Shown here: positions 479 to 20,048 of the stretch, piece after piece | Layout of the letters: each line of letters opens with the position of its first letter | Numbering within the stretch: position 1 is the stretch's first letter | Virus record (IMG/VR): IMGVR_UViG_3300017767_000168 | Coordinates: 1 to 21,484 of that record | From: a virus | Reading direction: 5' to 3' (one strand) | Length of the DNA: 21,484 nucleotides | Translations under genes and position numbers: made by a program | The notes under the pieces: generated by a model | The model's input: the letters and a program-made list of their open reading frames with translations, nothing else | Told to the model about the DNA's origin: nothing | Database searches by the model: none

Positions 479-821
479 GGGGCTGAATGGTATCGACAGG
501 TATTGGAAGTGTATAAGTGCAGCAGAGATTGAGTATGTCTCGTAATAAAAGACTCGTTTTTTGAATTGGCAATACTGCTAATTTTGCCTACGCGTAAAGT
601 GTAGGCCGTCACACCTAAGACACCGATATTAGGATGTGGCGTCGATATCGGTAGACCACTCATTGATAGATTGGAGTCAAACTAATTCTTTCAGTTAAAC
701 CATTCTGAGTAAAATGGGACATGGTGGGTTGTTAGTAACTACCGATTTGGAACTAAACTAAGCTGTAAACGACTTAACATTAAAGGTAGACTGGACACGA
801 GTTCGAATCTCGTCAGCTCCA
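479..821 (+). ncRNA. ssrA: tmRNA (transfer-messenger RNA), one-piece
   Basis: The 5' end GGGGCTG (479-485) pairs with CAGCTCC (814-820) as a 7-bp acceptor stem whose third pair is G-U, the alanine identity element. It is followed by discriminator A821; CCA is not encoded. The T arm is ACGAG / TTCGAAT loop / CTCGT (797-813). Pseudoknot 1 is visible: GAGA 525-528 with TCTC 538-541, and GAGT 531-534 with ACTC 552-555. About 12 nt later, at 568, the tag frame GGC AAT ACT GCT AAT TTT GCC TAC GCG TAA reads GNTANFAYA. Its stop lies in the loop of a perfect hairpin (586-591 with 601-606), as in cellular tmRNAs. Further pseudoknot-like stems follow: CCTAA/TTAGG at 614-633 and the 8-bp ACCGATAT/ATATCGGT at 622-652. 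Its role is rescue of stalled ribosomes and tagging of truncated proteins. No promoter or terminator of its own is evident, so it is probably processed from a longer transcript. It is unusual in a phage. Confidence 0.95.
568..597 (+). other. tmRNA tag-peptide reading frame
   Basis: The resume codon is proposed as GGC at 568, with A at position -4 as in E. coli tmRNA, giving GNTANFAYA and TAA at 595-597. With the alanine carried by the charged tmRNA the tag would be A-GNTANFAYA. This frame is preferred because its stop sits in the loop of the 586-606 hairpin. The alternative GCA frame at 569 gives AILLILPTRKV with a TAG inside the 3' stem. Starting the tag with Gly recalls some bacterial tags. 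The C-terminus AYA differs from the common LAA or AA endings that ClpXP recognises. Confidence 0.7.
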
Positions 822-2511: not shown

Positions 2512-4068
2512 TTGGAAAAAGGGTTTTACGAAAAATCAACTATAGCGGATAAAGATAATCCGATTAATATTACTTATGATGAGTTACTGCACAAAAGTGA
2601 TTCTGAAGTAGATAGTTGGATTGATGAACTTCGTACATATGTGATTACACAATGGGACGAGTTCGGACAACCACCAGTCATTGGACAAAACGAAAAAGAT
2701 ATAATCAGTAATTGGAGAAAGTTATTTGGTTATGATGTTGAGAGTTTTCATGATGACAAATCAAATGTAATAAAGAATTTTAACAAACATGCTAGTGGTG
2801 TTAATCAATTCTTTCCAACAATGTTAAAAACAAAAATCAGTACAGGTGTTAATAGTGATAATGCAACATCTATATATGATCACTTCAAAGAAGATTCACT
2901 TAAAGACACATTTAAAAAGGCAATGTTAAGAGCTTTATATAAAGACTCTATGTATACATTTAGTTTGAGTGTTGTAAAATCTGAGATGGGGATGGGTGTT
3001 AGTGAGTTCTTACAAAATACAAATCAAAATGAAAAGTATGGTATCATGGTTGTACAACAACGAAGTGAGAATCCAGTAGACCCACTTTCTGAATATTTAA
3101 TATTAAAGAAAAGTGAAGTAGAAATGTATCTAACTACAGGTCGTTTAACAGAACAAAATCTTAGAACAATAGGTGGTGAGTTAGAAAGTAGTTATGAATT
3201 AAAAAATGGTGAACTGAGATATTACCATTATTATATTAGAAAGTATAAAAGAAAACAAAGAATTTTTCCAAGTGCACTTCAAGTATTTAGATTAGGACTT
3301 GGACAACCTGCAGTAAATTTTCCACCACTAACCGCTAAGTTCTTATATGAACATTTTACAAAACATATAAAGAACAATAAAGTTAATATATATGATCCGA
3401 GTAGTGGTTGGGGTGGAAGAATTTTAGGTGCTATGTGTACTGATAGAGATTTACATTATATTGGAACAGACCCTAATCCTGATAATGTTGGGATATACCA
3501 AAGGGTTGCAGAATTTTATAATCAAAAGTGTTTTCAAACTAATCCATTTTGGGGAAAAGAAAATGGTAACACTTATGAAATATTTACAGATGGTAGTGAA
3601 GAGATAGGTAATAATCCTAACTTTCAGAAGTATAAAGGAAAGTTAGATATGGTTTTTACATCACCACCATATTTTAATCGTGAACAATATTCTCAAGATG
3701 AGAATCAATCATTTAAGAAGTTCAGTGCATATGAGGATTGGAGAGATAACTTTCTTCGTCCTACATTAACTACTGCATTTGAATATTTAAATGAAGATAG
3801 ATATTTGTGTTGGAATATTGCAGACATCAAAGTTGGAGATAACAAGTACATCCCTTTAGAACAGGATAGTATTGATGTAGTAGAATCACTCGGTGGTGAA
3901 TACAAAGGTATTTACAAAATGTTAATGACTCGTATGGTAGGTATAGATGCAAGTCAAATCAAGAATTCAGTTATAGTAAAAAAACATCCTTTAAGTAGAG
4001 GTGGAGATTATTATAAATTTGAACCTATATTAATATTTTATAAACCAAGGACGCACGATGAAATTTAG
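2512..4068 (+). CDS. DNA methyltransferase, motif order I then IV
   Basis: The start is TTG at 2512 with AGGA upstream; no ATG is better placed. The 518-residue protein has an N-terminal region of about 250 residues with no motif I recognise. It is followed by an SAM-binding motif I, IYDPSSGWGGRILGA (Asp295), then YIGTDPN as the acidic end of strand 2, and the catalytic motif IV TSPPYF (Ser384-Pro-Pro-Tyr387). SPPY occurs in N4-cytosine and some N6-adenine DNA methyltransferases, so the target base is not determined. The I-to-IV order is that of the alpha or gamma arrangement. The N-terminal half may hold target recognition. Its stop overlaps the next gene, a GNAT-dioxygenase fusion, by 11 nt, suggesting coupled production. 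A role in protecting or modifying phage DNA is likely; no restriction partner is visible. Confidence 0.85.
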   Translation: MEKGFYEKSTIADKDNPINITYDELLHKSDSEVDSWIDELRTYVITQWDEFGQPPVIGQNEKDIISNWRKLFGYDVESFHDDKSNVIKNFNKHASGVNQFFPTMLKTKISTGVNSDNATSIYDHFKEDSLKDTFKKAMLRALYKDSMYTFSLSVVKSEMGMGVSEFLQNTNQNEKYGIMVVQQRSENPVDPLSEYLILKKSEVEMYLTTGRLTEQNLRTIGGELESSYELKNGELRYYHYYIRKYKRKQRIFPSALQVFRLGLGQPAVNFPPLTAKFLYEHFTKHIKNNKVNIYDPSSGWGGRILGAMCTDRDLHYIGTDPNPDNVGIYQRVAEFYNQKCFQTNPFWGKENGNTYEIFTDGSEEIGNNPNFQKYKGKLDMVFTSPPYFNREQYSQDENQSFKKFSAYEDWRDNFLRPTLTTAFEYLNEDRYLCWNIADIKVGDNKYIPLEQDSIDVVESLGGEYKGIYKMLMTRMVGIDASQIKNSVIVKKHPLSRGGDYYKFEPILIFYKPRTHDEI

Positions 4069-5392
4069 AGATAGAACAATAGAAATTCCAAAACCATTTC
4101 ACAATGGTAAACAATGGGTATATGAAGATACACCTACATATGATAACTTACTAAGTTGTTTTTTAGAAACACAAAGACCTGAGGGTGAGAGAAAAATTAG
4201 AGAACAATATGGAAATACAAGATGTAGAGATCCATTTAGAAAAATAAATAAGATGGACATACAACTTATGTTTGATCATGTTGAGGGTAGAGAAGGCCAT
4301 CCTTATGAAACAGATTGGGTTGAGGATGAAGATGGAAAAATTGTTGCATGTATTTTATACTATGAATTAAATAATATGAAAACAGAATTTAAAAAGATAC
4401 AATCATTTACAAGTAAAATTTTTAAGTTAAGTAAAACAGATTCATACATTCGTGAGATTGCATGTTATCCTGGTTATGAACAACAACTATGTGATTTGAT
4501 ACAACGACATGAGGCAATTGGTAATGGTATCTTTGATAATGGAACTACCGTAGTTGAAGTTGATATGCAATTAAAATCAAAAAGAGAATTATTAGAGAAA
4601 CTTGGTTATCTTAGAAAAGATAATTTAATTACAAGTTTTGCAGATATGTATGGATTTTATTTTAAAGATGAAGATGATACTCATCAAGTAATTGAACCAT
4701 CACAAGAAATATCTTTACAGAAATTAGATTGTGAAGTACAAGATACTGAACCATTAATGAAACAAGTTATGGCACTACAAGAAACTTTTGCTAATCACTA
4801 TTCAAATTATAATAAAGGTGATAGTTGGAGTGGTATTGTTTTAAGAGGTTACAATGATGGTGATAAACAAGAGGGTGCAGAAACTTTTATTATGAAACCG
4901 GCAGAGATGGGACAGAAGTGGAAAAAAGAAAATCCTGAAAAAATGGAATGGAAAGTTTATGATACTGAGTTGAGAAAGACCTTGACAGAGGTAGAAAAGT
5001 TTTGTAAATTACTACCATTCGAACACGAAAGAATTCGAATACTTAAACTATCAGAGGGACAAGGTGAACTTGAAAGACATACTGATAGACAAGATAAGGA
5101 AGCTGGAATTGGTGATGGACAATGGGCAAGGTTACATTTCCCATTAAAGACTAATCCAAAAGTTCAGTTTACACAATGGAATACTGATGGTACACAAACT
5201 AAATGTAAAATGGGACAAGGTGAGTTATGGTATTTGGATATGAGAAAACCACATACTGCAGTTAACTTTGGTAAAGAAGATAGATATCATTTAATTATTG
5301 ATACAAAGTCTGGACCAGAATTAAGACAATGGTTAGTTGATAGTAGTATAAAACATCCATCAGATAAAAATAATGACAATTATATTGAATAA
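4058..5392 (+). CDS. GNAT-like domain fused to Asp/Asn-hydroxylase-type 2OG-Fe(II) dioxygenase
   Basis: This 444-residue protein has AAGGA before the ATG. Residues about 320-430 match the aspartyl/asparaginyl beta-hydroxylase fold. An H-x-D iron pair (His341, Asp343) is followed by an ARLHFPLKTNP strand, then WYLDMRKPHTAVNFG with the distal iron ligand His399, and DRYHLIID with Arg409 for 2-oxoglutarate. The triad is complete, so activity is expected. Residues about 80-215 look like an N-acetyltransferase (GNAT) fold: a DGKIVACILYYE strand, an IREIACYPGYEQQLCDLIQ strand-helix where acetyl-CoA would bind, and KRELLEKLGY near the end. The GNAT call is weaker than the oxygenase call. Substrates are unknown. 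Known relatives hydroxylate protein side chains, whereas the gene overlap with a DNA methyltransferase raises the possibility of nucleic-acid modification. Confidence 0.8.
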   Translation: MKFRDRTIEIPKPFHNGKQWVYEDTPTYDNLLSCFLETQRPEGERKIREQYGNTRCRDPFRKINKMDIQLMFDHVEGREGHPYETDWVEDEDGKIVACILYYELNNMKTEFKKIQSFTSKIFKLSKTDSYIREIACYPGYEQQLCDLIQRHEAIGNGIFDNGTTVVEVDMQLKSKRELLEKLGYLRKDNLITSFADMYGFYFKDEDDTHQVIEPSQEISLQKLDCEVQDTEPLMKQVMALQETFANHYSNYNKGDSWSGIVLRGYNDGDKQEGAETFIMKPAEMGQKWKKENPEKMEWKVYDTELRKTLTEVEKFCKLLPFEHERIRILKLSEGQGELERHTDRQDKEAGIGDGQWARLHFPLKTNPKVQFTQWNTDGTQTKCKMGQGELWYLDMRKPHTAVNFGKEDRYHLIIDTKSGPELRQWLVDSSIKHPSDKNNDNYIE

Positions 5393-14817: not shown

Positions 14818-15168
14818 ATGCCATATACACTTGGTGAGGCAAAGAAAAAATCATCACATTACAATAAAATAATTGATGCAGAAAGAATAGAACAAACAGA
14901 GATTATTGATGACTTACTTAATAAGGCATCTATATCTGGTTCTATTGATGCAAATACAGAATTAAGAAATGAAAATGGACACTTAGTGTCATTTGAGGAT
15001 CCTGATAATCCTGGTATGGCAGACGAAAGAACATTTGAATATGTAAGGTTACAAAATACACAAAAGTTTTTCAATAGTAATAAATTTAAAGATTTAAAAG
15101 ATTTAAAAGTCAATGGTGGATTTTCTGAATTCATCCGTAGTAACTATGATGAGGTTTACAAAAAATAA
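14818..15168 (+). CDS. Small helical baseplate-region protein (116 aa)
   Basis: TAGGA precedes the ATG, 3 nt after the previous stop. The 116-residue protein is mostly helical and charged. It opens PYTLGEAKKKSSHYNKIIDA, has an IEQTEIIDDLLNKASISGSI helix and a central DPDNPGMADERTFEYVRLQN stretch, and ends GGFSEFIRSNYDEVYKK. A short tandem repeat of GATTTAAAA (15090-15107) encodes KDLKDLK. It is coupled to the giant gene through a TAATG overlap. I do not recognise it. Operon position suggests an assembly partner of the 1626-residue protein. Confidence 0.7.
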   Translation: MPYTLGEAKKKSSHYNKIIDAERIEQTEIIDDLLNKASISGSIDANTELRNENGHLVSFEDPDNPGMADERTFEYVRLQNTQKFFNSNKFKDLKDLKVNGGFSEFIRSNYDEVYKK

Positions 15169-18100
15169 TGGCCAATATAGGATTCACAAAAAAAGAAAAA
15201 GAATTCTTTTTTAAGGAAAAGAATGTATATAGTAGTTTCGGTAGAGATTCTAAAGATTACATCATGCTCCATATTTATGATTTAGATGGTGAATTAATAG
15301 AGAGTGAAGCTTTTGGAAATGGTGAAGTAGGTAACATTACTGAAAATTATGTTGATTTAAATATAGGACAACAACTAAGAGATTTAGGTTATAGTAAAGG
15401 TACTTATAAAATAACATATAAATTTTTAAGAAAATTGGCAGGTAAAGAGGGTGAAGTATTTGTTAATGGTGAGGGTGCTATCTATGTTGGTAAAGTTCAA
15501 GTAAAAGTTATTAATGGTGAAACAAGATATTTTAGAACTATAGATAAATCAAGTACAGGAACTCAAGCAAAAGATAATAACCAAGTAGACGAACTATATC
15601 CAAGAAATTTAAAATATTTTATTGATAAGATTTCAGATGATAGAACAGAGGTTATAGTTTCAACACAAGACTTTAAGAATAAAACATACTTCAAAAATTT
15701 TACAGAGATGGGGAAATATATAAAGTACCAATCATTAAAAGGTGCAGGACAATTTGGTAAAGTAAAATTTGATGAAAATGATCCATACATATTAGAATTT
15801 CCAATCAATCCACGAGACAGAGGATTTACACAAAATATGGTTGGTGGTGAAATAGTTATACCAAGTCTTTATCAAGTAACACCAACTGAAGAAAAAATTA
15901 TTAAAGAATTTGTGGAAAGAGATGTAGAAACTACCAATCAAAGACCACCACTACCTAAACAACCTTTTGATGAAAAAGATCCACCAGCTCAGAAATATGC
16001 GGAAAAAGAACCTATTCCTGATATGGAAGAGTATAATAAAAAAGAAGAAGAATATATTGAACAACAAGATAATTATCGTGATGACTTCGATAGTGTTTGT
16101 TTCGTAGGTAGTACAAGAATAAAATTAAGTAATGGTAGACAAGTTCCAATTAAATCTTTACGAATAGGAATGAAAGTTAGAACTACACAAGGTACTGCAA
16201 GAATTAAAAAGGTATTAAAAACAGATAAGGGGTATGGTGGTAGATTATCTAAATTTGGTTCATTGGTTACTACAGATGGCCATCCAATAAAACATAAAGG
16301 AAGATGGTATAAGGCAGATGAAATTGGAAAACCATTTATGTCAAAACCACTTGTAGTTTATAACTTAGTACTTGAAAGACATCATACAATTTATGCAAAC
16401 AATGTAGTTGCAGCAACAGATGGTAAATGGAAATCTCTAAGTCACTTTGAAATGTGGAGAGATACAAAATTTAACATGGCAAGAGAAGCATATGACGATA
16501 GTGGAGAACAATCAGGTGGTGGTACTGCCGGAGGTGGTCAAAGTTATAGTCCCCCACCAATTGCAAATGAAGAAATCGTAGAACCTGAAGATACTTCAAC
16601 AAGAACAAACGATGAACTTATCGATGATTTAATCTATCAGGCAAAGATAGGAAAAAACCTTGATGAAACTGATGAAACTTGGGATGATTTACCACAACAA
16701 GAAAAGAAAGAATTAATTAAAACTATTGTTGTAACACTTCCAACCGTATTTCTTGATTATAAGGCAACTATTGTTGAAGTATTAGATAATAACCGTATTC
16801 GCGTAAATAAGTCCTATAATGATGGTGTAAACGAGACTGGACACGATGGGGGTGATGATAGTAAGCTAGAACACTTGCAATGGTATGTCCAATATTTAAA
16901 AACAAATTTATATAGATTTAAAACTTATATGGTTATTAATGATGATTATTATTTGATTATAAATCAAAATGATAATTTTTGTAAAAGTGTTGAAGAACGA
17001 GAAACAAAGAAAGTTCTTAAATTAAAACAACCACTAAAAGATACGGTTGATGAATTAGATAAAGTCTATTTTGTAGAAAAAAGATTAGAAGATTATGAAG
17101 ATACAATTGCAGTTGTACCTTTTGTTGACGAAGACCCTGTCGCATTATTTTTAGAATTACCAAATTTAAATTCAGTAGATAATCCAATTAATTTTAAGGG
17201 AACTGATTTTAAAACACATAATCAATTATTAGGTGATGATAAACAAGTCAATGAAGATATAGAAAGAGAATTGGTTTCTGGTAGTTTATTGAATGTTCAA
17301 GTGAATATTGATTACCAAAAAAGAACAACAGACTTGGAAGAATATAATGATGTAGGATTTGGAAACTTTGTTAACTTCAGTTCTGCAAAGGCAAGATTAA
17401 GAAACTTTAAAAGAAAATTAGAATTAATTGAGGGTTATAGTGCAACAAGTCAATCTTTACTAAATGTGACAAGTTCATTATCGACAATACAGACAAATGA
17501 ATCTAAAAGAACACGAGTAATAAATTCTTTTGATCCATATGAACATTATTTATATTTTGAAAGTTCATCTTATGTAAGTTCATCAGAGGGACAATTCCAT
17601 GATACATCATGGCCAAAAGAAACAACATCTAAACCTTATAGATTAACTCACACTACTTCATCAACTACTTGGTACGATACAATGTATGAAAGTGCTTCTC
17701 TTTATGATAGAATGAATAGAGATACTTTAAGTAATAATATTCCAAAGCATGTAACAAGTGATACCGAGAATAATGTTTTTATAGAATTTGTTGATATGGT
17801 AGGACAACAATTTGATGAAGTGTGGACTTATACAAAACACTTTACTGATGTAAATCAAAAAGTAGAAAATGTATCAGAGGGTATATCAAAAGATATTGCA
17901 TCATATTATGCGAAGTCTCTTGGTTTAGAATTAGTTAATGGGAATGATTTATTAATATTACCAGAATATCTATTAGGTAAAAATGCAGATGGTAGTACTA
18001 AATATGAATCATCACAAGAGGCAGTTACTGAAGAGATATGGAAAAGAATATTAGGTAGTTTACCATTTTTCTTAAAATCAAAAGGAACTATAAGAGCATT

Positions 18101-20048
18101 AAAAGGATTATTAAATTGTTATGGTATACCAAGTTCAATATTACGAGTAAGAGAATATGGAGGGCCTGATAAAGGAACACGAGTAAGTTATGAAGTAAAG
18201 AGGAAGTTTACCTATGCATTAGATTTCCATTCTTCACAATACATTACATCCAATTGGTTAACAGATACTGCAACGAGTAGAGTTCCTGATACGGTAGAAT
18301 TTAGATTTAGAACACCTAAGTCTCAAGATATGGTTGTGGTACAAAAAGGAGCCAAATGGGCTATACAATTACAAGATAATGGTTCCACAGACAATTATGG
18401 ATATTTAAGATTTGCAGTTAGTGCTTCTACAGGAGTACAATATATTACATCATCACTACAACCATTTTATAATGATGAGATGTGGAGTGTAATGTTATCA
18501 AGAGTAAGTGCAAGTGATGGTAGTGTATTACCGAGTGATGATATTTTACAGAATGTTAAATATGAATTAGTTGCAAAACAATATGATGGTAGTCAAGAAA
18601 AAATAAAATTTGAAACAAGTGAAAGTTTAACCACAGGTATTGCAGCTGCAGGTAATGCAGTTAATGCAGCATTTACATCAAGTGAACTATTATACCTCGG
18701 TGGTAATGGTAGTAATTGGGGAACACAATATAGTGGTTCCATGATGGAGTTTAGATTATGGAGTGAACCATTAAGTCAAAGTGTATTTGATAATCATGTT
18801 AGAGCACCAAAGAGTTATAATGGTAATAGTATAAGTTCATCATATGAAAACTTTGTATTGAGATTACCATTGGATGAAAATGTTAATTTAAATTCATCAC
18901 CACAAATTACCAATAAGGCGTTTCCTGGTACTTACAATGCATCAGGTAGTGCGGCAAGTTATACTAAAAATGATTATAGAAGTTTAGTAGATTTAGAACA
19001 ATTAAAAGTTCCTAACTTTGGTCCGTCACGAAGAAATGCAACAAAGATTAGAATTGAAGATCATAAGTTAACTGGACAATTATCACCTGATGTACGAAGA
19101 GAAAAGTCTTCACAAGATTTTGCACCAATAGATAGTGAAAAGGTAGGTATTTACTTCTCACCAGTTGATGTGGTGAATGAAGATATAATGTATTCATTAG
19201 CAGATTTTAACTTTGATGATGAAATAGGTGACCCAAGAGATGAATACAAATATCATTATAGAGGATTAAGAGGAACTGCAAGAAATTATTGGAAAAAATA
19301 TAGTTCCCCAAATAACTTTTTTGACTATCTAAGAATATTAAGTTTCTATGACGCGGGAGTATTTACACAAACAAAGGCATTGATACCTGCGAGAGCAAAA
19401 GCATCGGTTGGTATATTAATTGAACCAAATATATTACAGAGAAATAAAGAAGTAATAGGTAAAGAACCTGAGTTTGATAATCAATATTATGAAAACGCAA
19501 ATGAATTTGAAGAGGGTTTAAATGTATTAAGATTTGTTAGTGGTTCTAAAGATGATGCATTTTTTGATATTTCATCAACTTATGATACTTATAATAGTGA
19601 ACTAAATTTACACCATGAGGAATCTGGTTCATTGGGTTCATTAGGTAAACCAACATTAGTAAAAATAGGTCAGATAGATAAAAAGACAGAGTATAATACA
19701 TTATATGCAACTGCAAGTGTTACATTAGGTTCAGATGGACAATTTTTTAGTGAATCAATACAACCGAATATTAATTCATCAAGATTGTCAGAACATAACG
19801 AAGAAAAAGAATTTTTTTATAGTTCGAGTTTAAGTGCATCACTACATAAACCATATAGTGCTTCATTTAAACCATCGGAATATCAAAGTATGTCATATGA
19901 TACACAATTATTTAGAGTATTTGTACAAGGTTCACTACTAACTATAGAGAACACAATAGACTCAAGAGAACCAGTAGAAGTTAATGTAACAACACCAACC
20001 ACATTAATAACACAAGAACCTGGTGAATCAAAACTTAAAGTAAAATAA
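15168..20048 (+). CDS. Giant baseplate-region structural protein with Hint and LamG-like domains (1626 aa)
   Basis: The ATG overlaps the previous stop. Residues 1-240 are beta-rich (DYIMLHIYDLDGELIESEAF, LRDLGYSKGTYKITYKFLRK), a pattern shared by large virion proteins of marine T4-like phages. A Pro/Glu-rich linker (about 250-310) leads to an intein-like Hint domain (311-419; separate entry), then a Gly-rich linker (447-463). Residues about 955-1005 hold IWKRILGSLPFFLKSKGTIR and ALKGLLNCYGIPSS, resembling P2 gpI-like baseplate segments. About 1012-1245 form a concanavalin/LamG-like domain with YSGSMMEFRLWSEPLSQSVF and a closing FVLRLPLDE strand. The final 380 residues are Ser/Asn-rich beta structure. 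It is larger than any T4 baseplate protein (gp7 is 1032 aa) and lies where gp7-gp10 would be. The LamG part may bind glycans. Confidence 0.85.
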   Translation: MANIGFTKKEKEFFFKEKNVYSSFGRDSKDYIMLHIYDLDGELIESEAFGNGEVGNITENYVDLNIGQQLRDLGYSKGTYKITYKFLRKLAGKEGEVFVNGEGAIYVGKVQVKVINGETRYFRTIDKSSTGTQAKDNNQVDELYPRNLKYFIDKISDDRTEVIVSTQDFKNKTYFKNFTEMGKYIKYQSLKGAGQFGKVKFDENDPYILEFPINPRDRGFTQNMVGGEIVIPSLYQVTPTEEKIIKEFVERDVETTNQRPPLPKQPFDEKDPPAQKYAEKEPIPDMEEYNKKEEEYIEQQDNYRDDFDSVCFVGSTRIKLSNGRQVPIKSLRIGMKVRTTQGTARIKKVLKTDKGYGGRLSKFGSLVTTDGHPIKHKGRWYKADEIGKPFMSKPLVVYNLVLERHHTIYANNVVAATDGKWKSLSHFEMWRDTKFNMAREAYDDSGEQSGGGTAGGGQSYSPPPIANEEIVEPEDTSTRTNDELIDDLIYQAKIGKNLDETDETWDDLPQQEKKELIKTIVVTLPTVFLDYKATIVEVLDNNRIRVNKSYNDGVNETGHDGGDDSKLEHLQWYVQYLKTNLYRFKTYMVINDDYYLIINQNDNFCKSVEERETKKVLKLKQPLKDTVDELDKVYFVEKRLEDYEDTIAVVPFVDEDPVALFLELPNLNSVDNPINFKGTDFKTHNQLLGDDKQVNEDIERELVSGSLLNVQVNIDYQKRTTDLEEYNDVGFGNFVNFSSAKARLRNFKRKLELIEGYSATSQSLLNVTSSLSTIQTNESKRTRVINSFDPYEHYLYFESSSYVSSSEGQFHDTSWPKETTSKPYRLTHTTSSTTWYDTMYESASLYDRMNRDTLSNNIPKHVTSDTENNVFIEFVDMVGQQFDEVWTYTKHFTDVNQKVENVSEGISKDIASYYAKSLGLELVNGNDLLILPEYLLGKNADGSTKYESSQEAVTEEIWKRILGSLPFFLKSKGTIRALKGLLNCYGIPSSILRVREYGGPDKGTRVSYEVKRKFTYALDFHSSQYITSNWLTDTATSRVPDTVEFRFRTPKSQDMVVVQKGAKWAIQLQDNGSTDNYGYLRFAVSASTGVQYITSSLQPFYNDEMWSVMLSRVSASDGSVLPSDDILQNVKYELVAKQYDGSQEKIKFETSESLTTGIAAAGNAVNAAFTSSELLYLGGNGSNWGTQYSGSMMEFRLWSEPLSQSVFDNHVRAPKSYNGNSISSSYENFVLRLPLDENVNLNSSPQITNKAFPGTYNASGSAASYTKNDYRSLVDLEQLKVPNFGPSRRNATKIRIEDHKLTGQLSPDVRREKSSQDFAPIDSEKVGIYFSPVDVVNEDIMYSLADFNFDDEIGDPRDEYKYHYRGLRGTARNYWKKYSSPNNFFDYLRILSFYDAGVFTQTKALIPARAKASVGILIEPNILQRNKEVIGKEPEFDNQYYENANEFEEGLNVLRFVSGSKDDAFFDISSTYDTYNSELNLHHEESGSLGSLGKPTLVKIGQIDKKTEYNTLYATASVTLGSDGQFFSESIQPNINSSRLSEHNEEKEFFYSSSLSASLHKPYSASFKPSEYQSMSYDTQLFRVFVQGSLLTIENTIDSREPVEVNVTTPTTLITQEPGESKLKVK
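16098..16424 (+). other. Intein-like Hint domain inside the giant virion protein
   Basis: The domain is residues 311-419 of the host protein. Block A starts at Cys311 (CFVGSTRIKLSNGRQVPIKS), with LRIGMKVRT as the next strand. Block B is TTDGH with the T-x-x-H pair Thr369/His372. The C-terminal block is YNLVLERHHTIYANNVVAAT, with His405/His406. At about 109 residues it is a minimal domain with no homing endonuclease. The terminal His-Asn plus Cys/Ser/Thr needed for standard splicing is missing: VVAATDG replaces the usual VVHN. N-terminal thioester chemistry at Cys311 may still work, giving cleavage or ligation to a nucleophile, as in hedgehog or bacterial intein-like domains. Flexible linkers flank it on both sides. 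Confidence 0.8.

Follow-up and report, generated by a model that had tools for sequence, protein, structure and literature searches.

The locus described here allows the purpose of phage tmRNAs to be approached by comparison: the gene has many divergent natural variants and two tag types occur within one neighbourhood, so that the parts preserved by selection can serve as a guide to function. The DNA analysed (hereafter the window) is an entire viral record of 21,484 bp, itself a fragment of a genome. A sequence-only reading had proposed that it comes from a T4-like phage and carries an intact one-piece tmRNA at 479-821. The first proposal fits the gene order and the presence of gp25/gp6-like baseplate genes, as expected of a T4-like myophage, and the second is taken up below with reference to the following features.

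317-472, + strand: small acidic open reading frame immediately before the tmRNA, with a conserved position; homologues in relatives are 50-61% identical and also lie upstream of the tmRNA
479-821, + strand: one-piece tmRNA (ssrA), mature RNA without CCA; RF00023 at 97.8 bits, covariation in 16 relatives, 27 further unique homologues
479-485, + strand: 5' strand of the acceptor stem, pairing with 814-820; G3-U70 (alanine identity) invariant in 16/16
508-523, + strand: 5' strand of helix P2, pairing with 762-781; structure and covariation
525-555, + strand: pseudoknot 1 (PK1); 8 pairs, paired in 100% of cells, 6 of them doubly changed
568-597, + strand: predicted tag frame GGC...TAA, encoding GNTANFAYA after the tmRNA-borne alanine; frame and pattern common to independent relatives
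586-606, + strand: hairpin whose loop holds the tag stop codon; 90% of cells paired
610-652, + strand: pseudoknot 2 (PK2); 16 pairs, 9 doubly changed
797-813, + strand: T arm; 5 pairs, paired in 100% of cells, 4 of them doubly changed
1967-2503, + strand: neighbour protein, conserved and encoded downstream of the tmRNA, which served as the marker for relatives; 120 fetched loci, 381 viral contigs

We show that positions 479-821 are a complete one-piece phage tmRNA. The sole Rfam match that cmscan returned for the window was to the tmRNA model RF00023, at 479-824, with 97.8 bits against a gathering threshold of 47, an E value of 2e-37 and full coverage of model positions 1-374, which confirms the proposed gene. 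The mature RNA occupies exactly the proposed interval and is 343 nt long with A821 as discriminator; CCA is absent from the gene, where the sequence reads ACAA. The acceptor stem with its G3-U pair, the T arm, PK1, the tag frame and the stop-codon hairpin are all intact, as the earlier reading held, and every position of the acceptor stem (GGGGCUG/CAGCUCC) is paired. No sign of circular permutation was found with cmscan: the order is linear, 5' to 3', across the whole standard model, and a match to a permuted model is absent from the window. ARAGORN, which had been suggested as a second check, detected no tmRNA on the whole window or on the isolated gene, even with relaxed thresholds, and at most related loci it reported either no tmRNA or just the tail of the tag. 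Since ARAGORN is blind to most of these loci, surveys built on it have probably undercounted such tmRNAs.

The fold is maintained by compensatory change. Across 16 unique short-form tmRNAs, the window's included, standard pairs fill 93.8% of cells of a 58-pair named structure, and 27 of the 58 pairs have changed on both sides. Double-compensated cells number 113, compared with 38.6 in shuffles (none of 500 shuffles reached as high), and pairing falls to 34-46% when partners are shifted by one to three columns. Compensatory changes occur in most named helices, PK1 and PK2 among them. By eye, a PK4-like arrangement (CAG/CTG plus CCATT/AATGG) can also be seen near 692-718.

In its full match to RF00023, G3-U70 pair, T arm, PK1, PK2 and tag frame with stop, the molecule resembles bacterial one-piece tmRNAs, from which it differs in being phage-borne, in its GGC resume codon, in the FAYA ending of its tag and in escaping ARAGORN. 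tmRNA genes are known from Bacillus phage G and from mycobacteriophages such as Bxz1 (PMC4131195), and huge phages carry them as well (PMC7162821); however, a comparison with 50,697 phage records showed no DNA similarity to the window tmRNA save over stretches of about 30 bases in its tRNA-like 3' end, and blastn against named phages gave no match. Methylophilales phage Melnitz is, like the source of the window, a marine T4-like phage with a tmRNA, but its gene is circularly permuted, yields a two-piece RNA and is linked to a glutamine riboswitch (PMC9004378), whereas the window gene is one-piece and cmscan found no riboswitch above threshold in the window. The view that ssrA is rare in phages agrees with its occurrence in 402 of 18,146 phage genomes, about 2.3% (PMC9004378), and a database of 97,179 tmRNA sequences holds 79 from phages and has 10 amino acids as its commonest tag length (PMC11915505). 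Phage tmRNAs are thus already known and the window gene adds a member; what is new is a group of phages with a long tag under selection. The open-access literature, a scope outside which most subscription papers fall, yielded no description of this phage group or of such a tag.

A search with the neighbour protein at 1967-2503 identified relatives on 381 viral contigs, 80 of which were fetched. A tmRNA with both ends is present in 39 of these 80, 20 of them about 345 nt and 19 about 410 nt long, and 2 more are partial. In many of the sampled marine phage relatives the tmRNA adjoins the same neighbour genes as in the window. Many relatives that share the neighbour genes lack a tmRNA there, including one whole clade of the neighbour-protein tree, so some members of the group can do without it. 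In one long-tag contig (L001, near 3948), the stop codon TGA of the upstream reading frame apparently lies within the tmRNA's GGGGCTGA.

The window has the short tag type. Its predicted codons are GGC AAT ACT GCT AAT TTT GCC TAC GCG TAA, with the resume codon GGC at 568 and the stop TAA at 595. The pattern of this tag of about nine residues, G[NT]xxN[FYV]AYA, recurs in 15 other unique tmRNAs, and relatives' short tags include GNTANYAYA, GTQFNYAYA, GTYSNVAYA, GNQVNFAYA, GNMSNFAYA, GNYANVAYA, GTEFNYAYA and GTQANLTYAYA. As judged from these sequences, the predicted reading frame and its AYA ending are conserved among relatives.

The second type reads a far longer peptide. Its first example, the L001 tmRNA, came from an exact-pattern scan and reads a tag of 36 amino acids. 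A scan with its PK2 reached 67 contigs and 47 unique tags of 34-43 amino acids, and a scan with the tag alignment reached 134 viral contigs with long tags of 34 to about 45. The conservation of PK2 in the first set is not evidence, since that set was picked by PK2; selection of the 134 contigs was independent of it. The long-tag consensus is G[DE]xSLxGLxIDWHLA, a variable middle and QPxYAYA(A)*, so that some 25 conserved residues form a module between the resume codon and the AYA(A) ending. Two observations bear on whether this peptide is made. For the N-terminal block, pN/pS is 0.31 in frame but 1.77 and 1.01 when the block is read out of frame. Between the GGGTT anchor and the PK2 loop anchor, which span the tag, nine spacings occur, and in 52/52 sequences these leave the same remainder modulo 3, whereas the lengths of the 5' segment are spread evenly over the three remainders (22/21/21). 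Together, the in-frame pN/pS and the whole-codon length steps argue that the long-tag peptide is almost certainly translated and under selection, and they rule out RNA structure alone as the cause of its conservation.

Searches for the origin of the long tag gave little. Among 84,980 cellular species genomes it occurs once, on a phage-like contig, and in no cellular chromosome. A Pfam search returned no match, and a likeness to GH18 chitinases in the PDB (E 0.08; SLDGLDIDW, as in L025, against DGLDIDWE) is probably due to chance. In other phage proteins, the tag motif was matched by three sequences only, each of them the 5' end of the tmRNA read in a shifted frame. AlphaFold modelled the tag mostly at low confidence, with one short helix. 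A phage-encoded ClpP was considered as a partner of the tag and rejected, since only 2 of 17 records have one. Extended phage tags have a second instance in a separate tRNA-rich lineage (L004, L005 and L007), whose one-piece tmRNAs have tags of 23-24 amino acids such as GENPFFVLAGLGSVETAEVALAA. A further phage tmRNA (L012, 2319-2702) has a 19-amino-acid tag, AKTKVLGFIGGAPALAIAA.

This pattern of constraint bears on what such an RNA could be for. That the gene is a captured host sequence carried as a functionless passenger is very improbable: phages are known to acquire ssrA sequences at integration sites (PMC9004378), but here covariation and coding constraint extend across many divergent phages, the neighbourhood is conserved and the closest cellular tags differ. 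We also regard it as improbable, though less so, that the RNA acts mainly as a decoy which titrates host SmpB and so blocks host trans-translation, in the manner reported for the tRNA-like fragment of phage DS6A. Inhibition of tmRNA is reported for that type of fragment (PMC4131195, PMC11915505), and the phage encodes the RNA without SmpB; however, a decoy would need the tRNA-like domain alone, whereas tag frame, stop, PK1 and PK2 are all kept and the tag peptide is under purifying selection in the long-tag relatives. In a third account, the peptide itself is the product: the long module would be a binding or inhibitory peptide placed on truncated proteins, with degradation secondary, and would have been lost in the window. 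The near invariance of GLxIDWHLA among 47 unique tags, with synonymous variation, fits this account, as does the absence of the long tag from cellular genomes save for one phage contig, but the C-terminus retains an AYA(A) ending like those of cellular tags in the phylum of the probable host and the structure model is largely of low confidence. We consider it unlikely on balance, though less so than the decoy.

We therefore favour a working phage tmRNA that uses host SmpB and host proteases, a reading we hold to be likely, in which the fold and the conserved tag are shown by the sequence and the host steps are inferred. During infection, host alanyl-tRNA synthetase would charge the phage tmRNA and host SmpB would bind it. 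The complex would enter ribosomes that have stalled on mRNAs broken in the course of infection, add Ala-GNTANFAYA and release the ribosome, and the tagged fragment would pass to a host protease that reads AYA(A)-type endings. As the sequence-only reading noted, smpB is absent from the window, and none was found in 26 other phage records, the largest of 484 kb and most of them incomplete; as the window record is a fragment, the gene could be located elsewhere in this phage. Genomes with a cellular tmRNA encode SmpB too, but this does not define phage tmRNAs. The suggestion in that reading that the phage supports or replaces host ribosome rescue stands in part: the conserved functional parts agree with a role in rescue, while with no smpB found in 27 phage records host SmpB would be required, which leaves replacement of the host system unsupported. 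The same reading had raised a redirection of tagging, and here the two tag types differ. The window's tag is short and its FAYA ending is like that of host tags, ADNFAYAA for instance; this favours the ordinary host degradation route, whereas the tags of the long-tag relatives differ strongly from those of the likely host phylum and suit redirection.

For a selected tag as long as this (34 to about 45 amino acids), ordinary degradation tagging is hard to accept as the whole explanation. The long module probably binds a protease, an adaptor or another partner and would thereby alter the fate of tagged proteins. A cellular tag that is longer than usual occurs in Mycoplasma and Mesoplasma; it is unrelated in sequence and does not reach the length of the long tags of the phages, and the window itself has the short type. 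This extended tag ends in NYAFA, similar in kind to AYA, and is recognised by Lon (Gur and Sauer 2008 and Ge and Karzai 2009, cited in PMC9382460), so that, by analogy, it may be taken as the nearest precedent for a longer tag that changes the choice of protease. Tentatively, and with less than even confidence, we propose that tmRNA tagging serves these phages as a targeting device, in which the conserved module GxxSLxGLxIDWHLA of the long tag directs unfinished proteins to a specific, phage-chosen protease, adaptor or inhibitory interaction and the short tag of the window has reverted secondarily to a degron like the host's.

The tag ending also gives a pointer to the host lineage of this uncultured phage group. 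The single cellular hit for the long tag belongs to the MAG TMED198, whose own tag is ADYGYAAAA; the contig responsible, 7.5 kb long and binned with this MAG, is phage-like and contains tRNA genes. In sampled genomes of the same phylum, which may be Marinimicrobia (SAR406), tags include ADNYAYAA, ANNYAYAA, ADNFAYAA and ADYGQFAYA, as well as GENNYALAA and GESNYALAA; several end in AYA(A) and others in LAA, MAA or AAA, a comparison made within that phylum only. SmpB is present in 36 of 41 genomes of this candidate phylum. The AYA(A) ending common to phage and phylum points to a host there, which we think somewhat better than an even prospect. A Bacteroidota host had been suspected at first from the glycine resume codon and a gp6 match to Flavobacterium phage immuto (41%). 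That suspicion was weakened in two ways: Shine-Dalgarno-like motifs precede 15 of 21 window genes versus 1 of 44 in immuto, which argues against a Flavobacteriia host, and the regions before the tmRNAs of this group show no enrichment of the Bacteroidota-type promoter.

Finally, the phylogenetic position of the window suggests how the two tag types are related. Its baseplate gp6 is 48-70% identical to gp6 in 25 of 31 long-tag records, and the gp6 phylogeny places the window inside the long-tag group, with one long-tag phage as its sister (100/99). On the neighbour-protein tree the short forms require 3 changes, compared with 15.7 in shuffles. Since the window is placed among long-tag relatives, its short tag is probably derived from the long form. 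The simplest reading is a change from long to short in which the middle of the RNA was replaced; swaps of the tmRNA alone are a possible alternative.

Three other genes of the window deserve mention. The 1626-residue tail or baseplate protein encoded at 15168-20048 contains a Hint-type domain at residues 310-417 (Pfam Vint, 65 bits), which begins CFVGSTRI and ends VVAATDG. Overlapping frames at 1155-1595 and 1552-1893 are APS-kinase-like and nucleotidyltransferase-like; PHROG 10255 unites both parts in one protein, so the window gene looks split. The phage protein at 4058-5392 has an Aspartyl/asparaginyl beta-hydroxylase domain and is rare among the fetched relatives.
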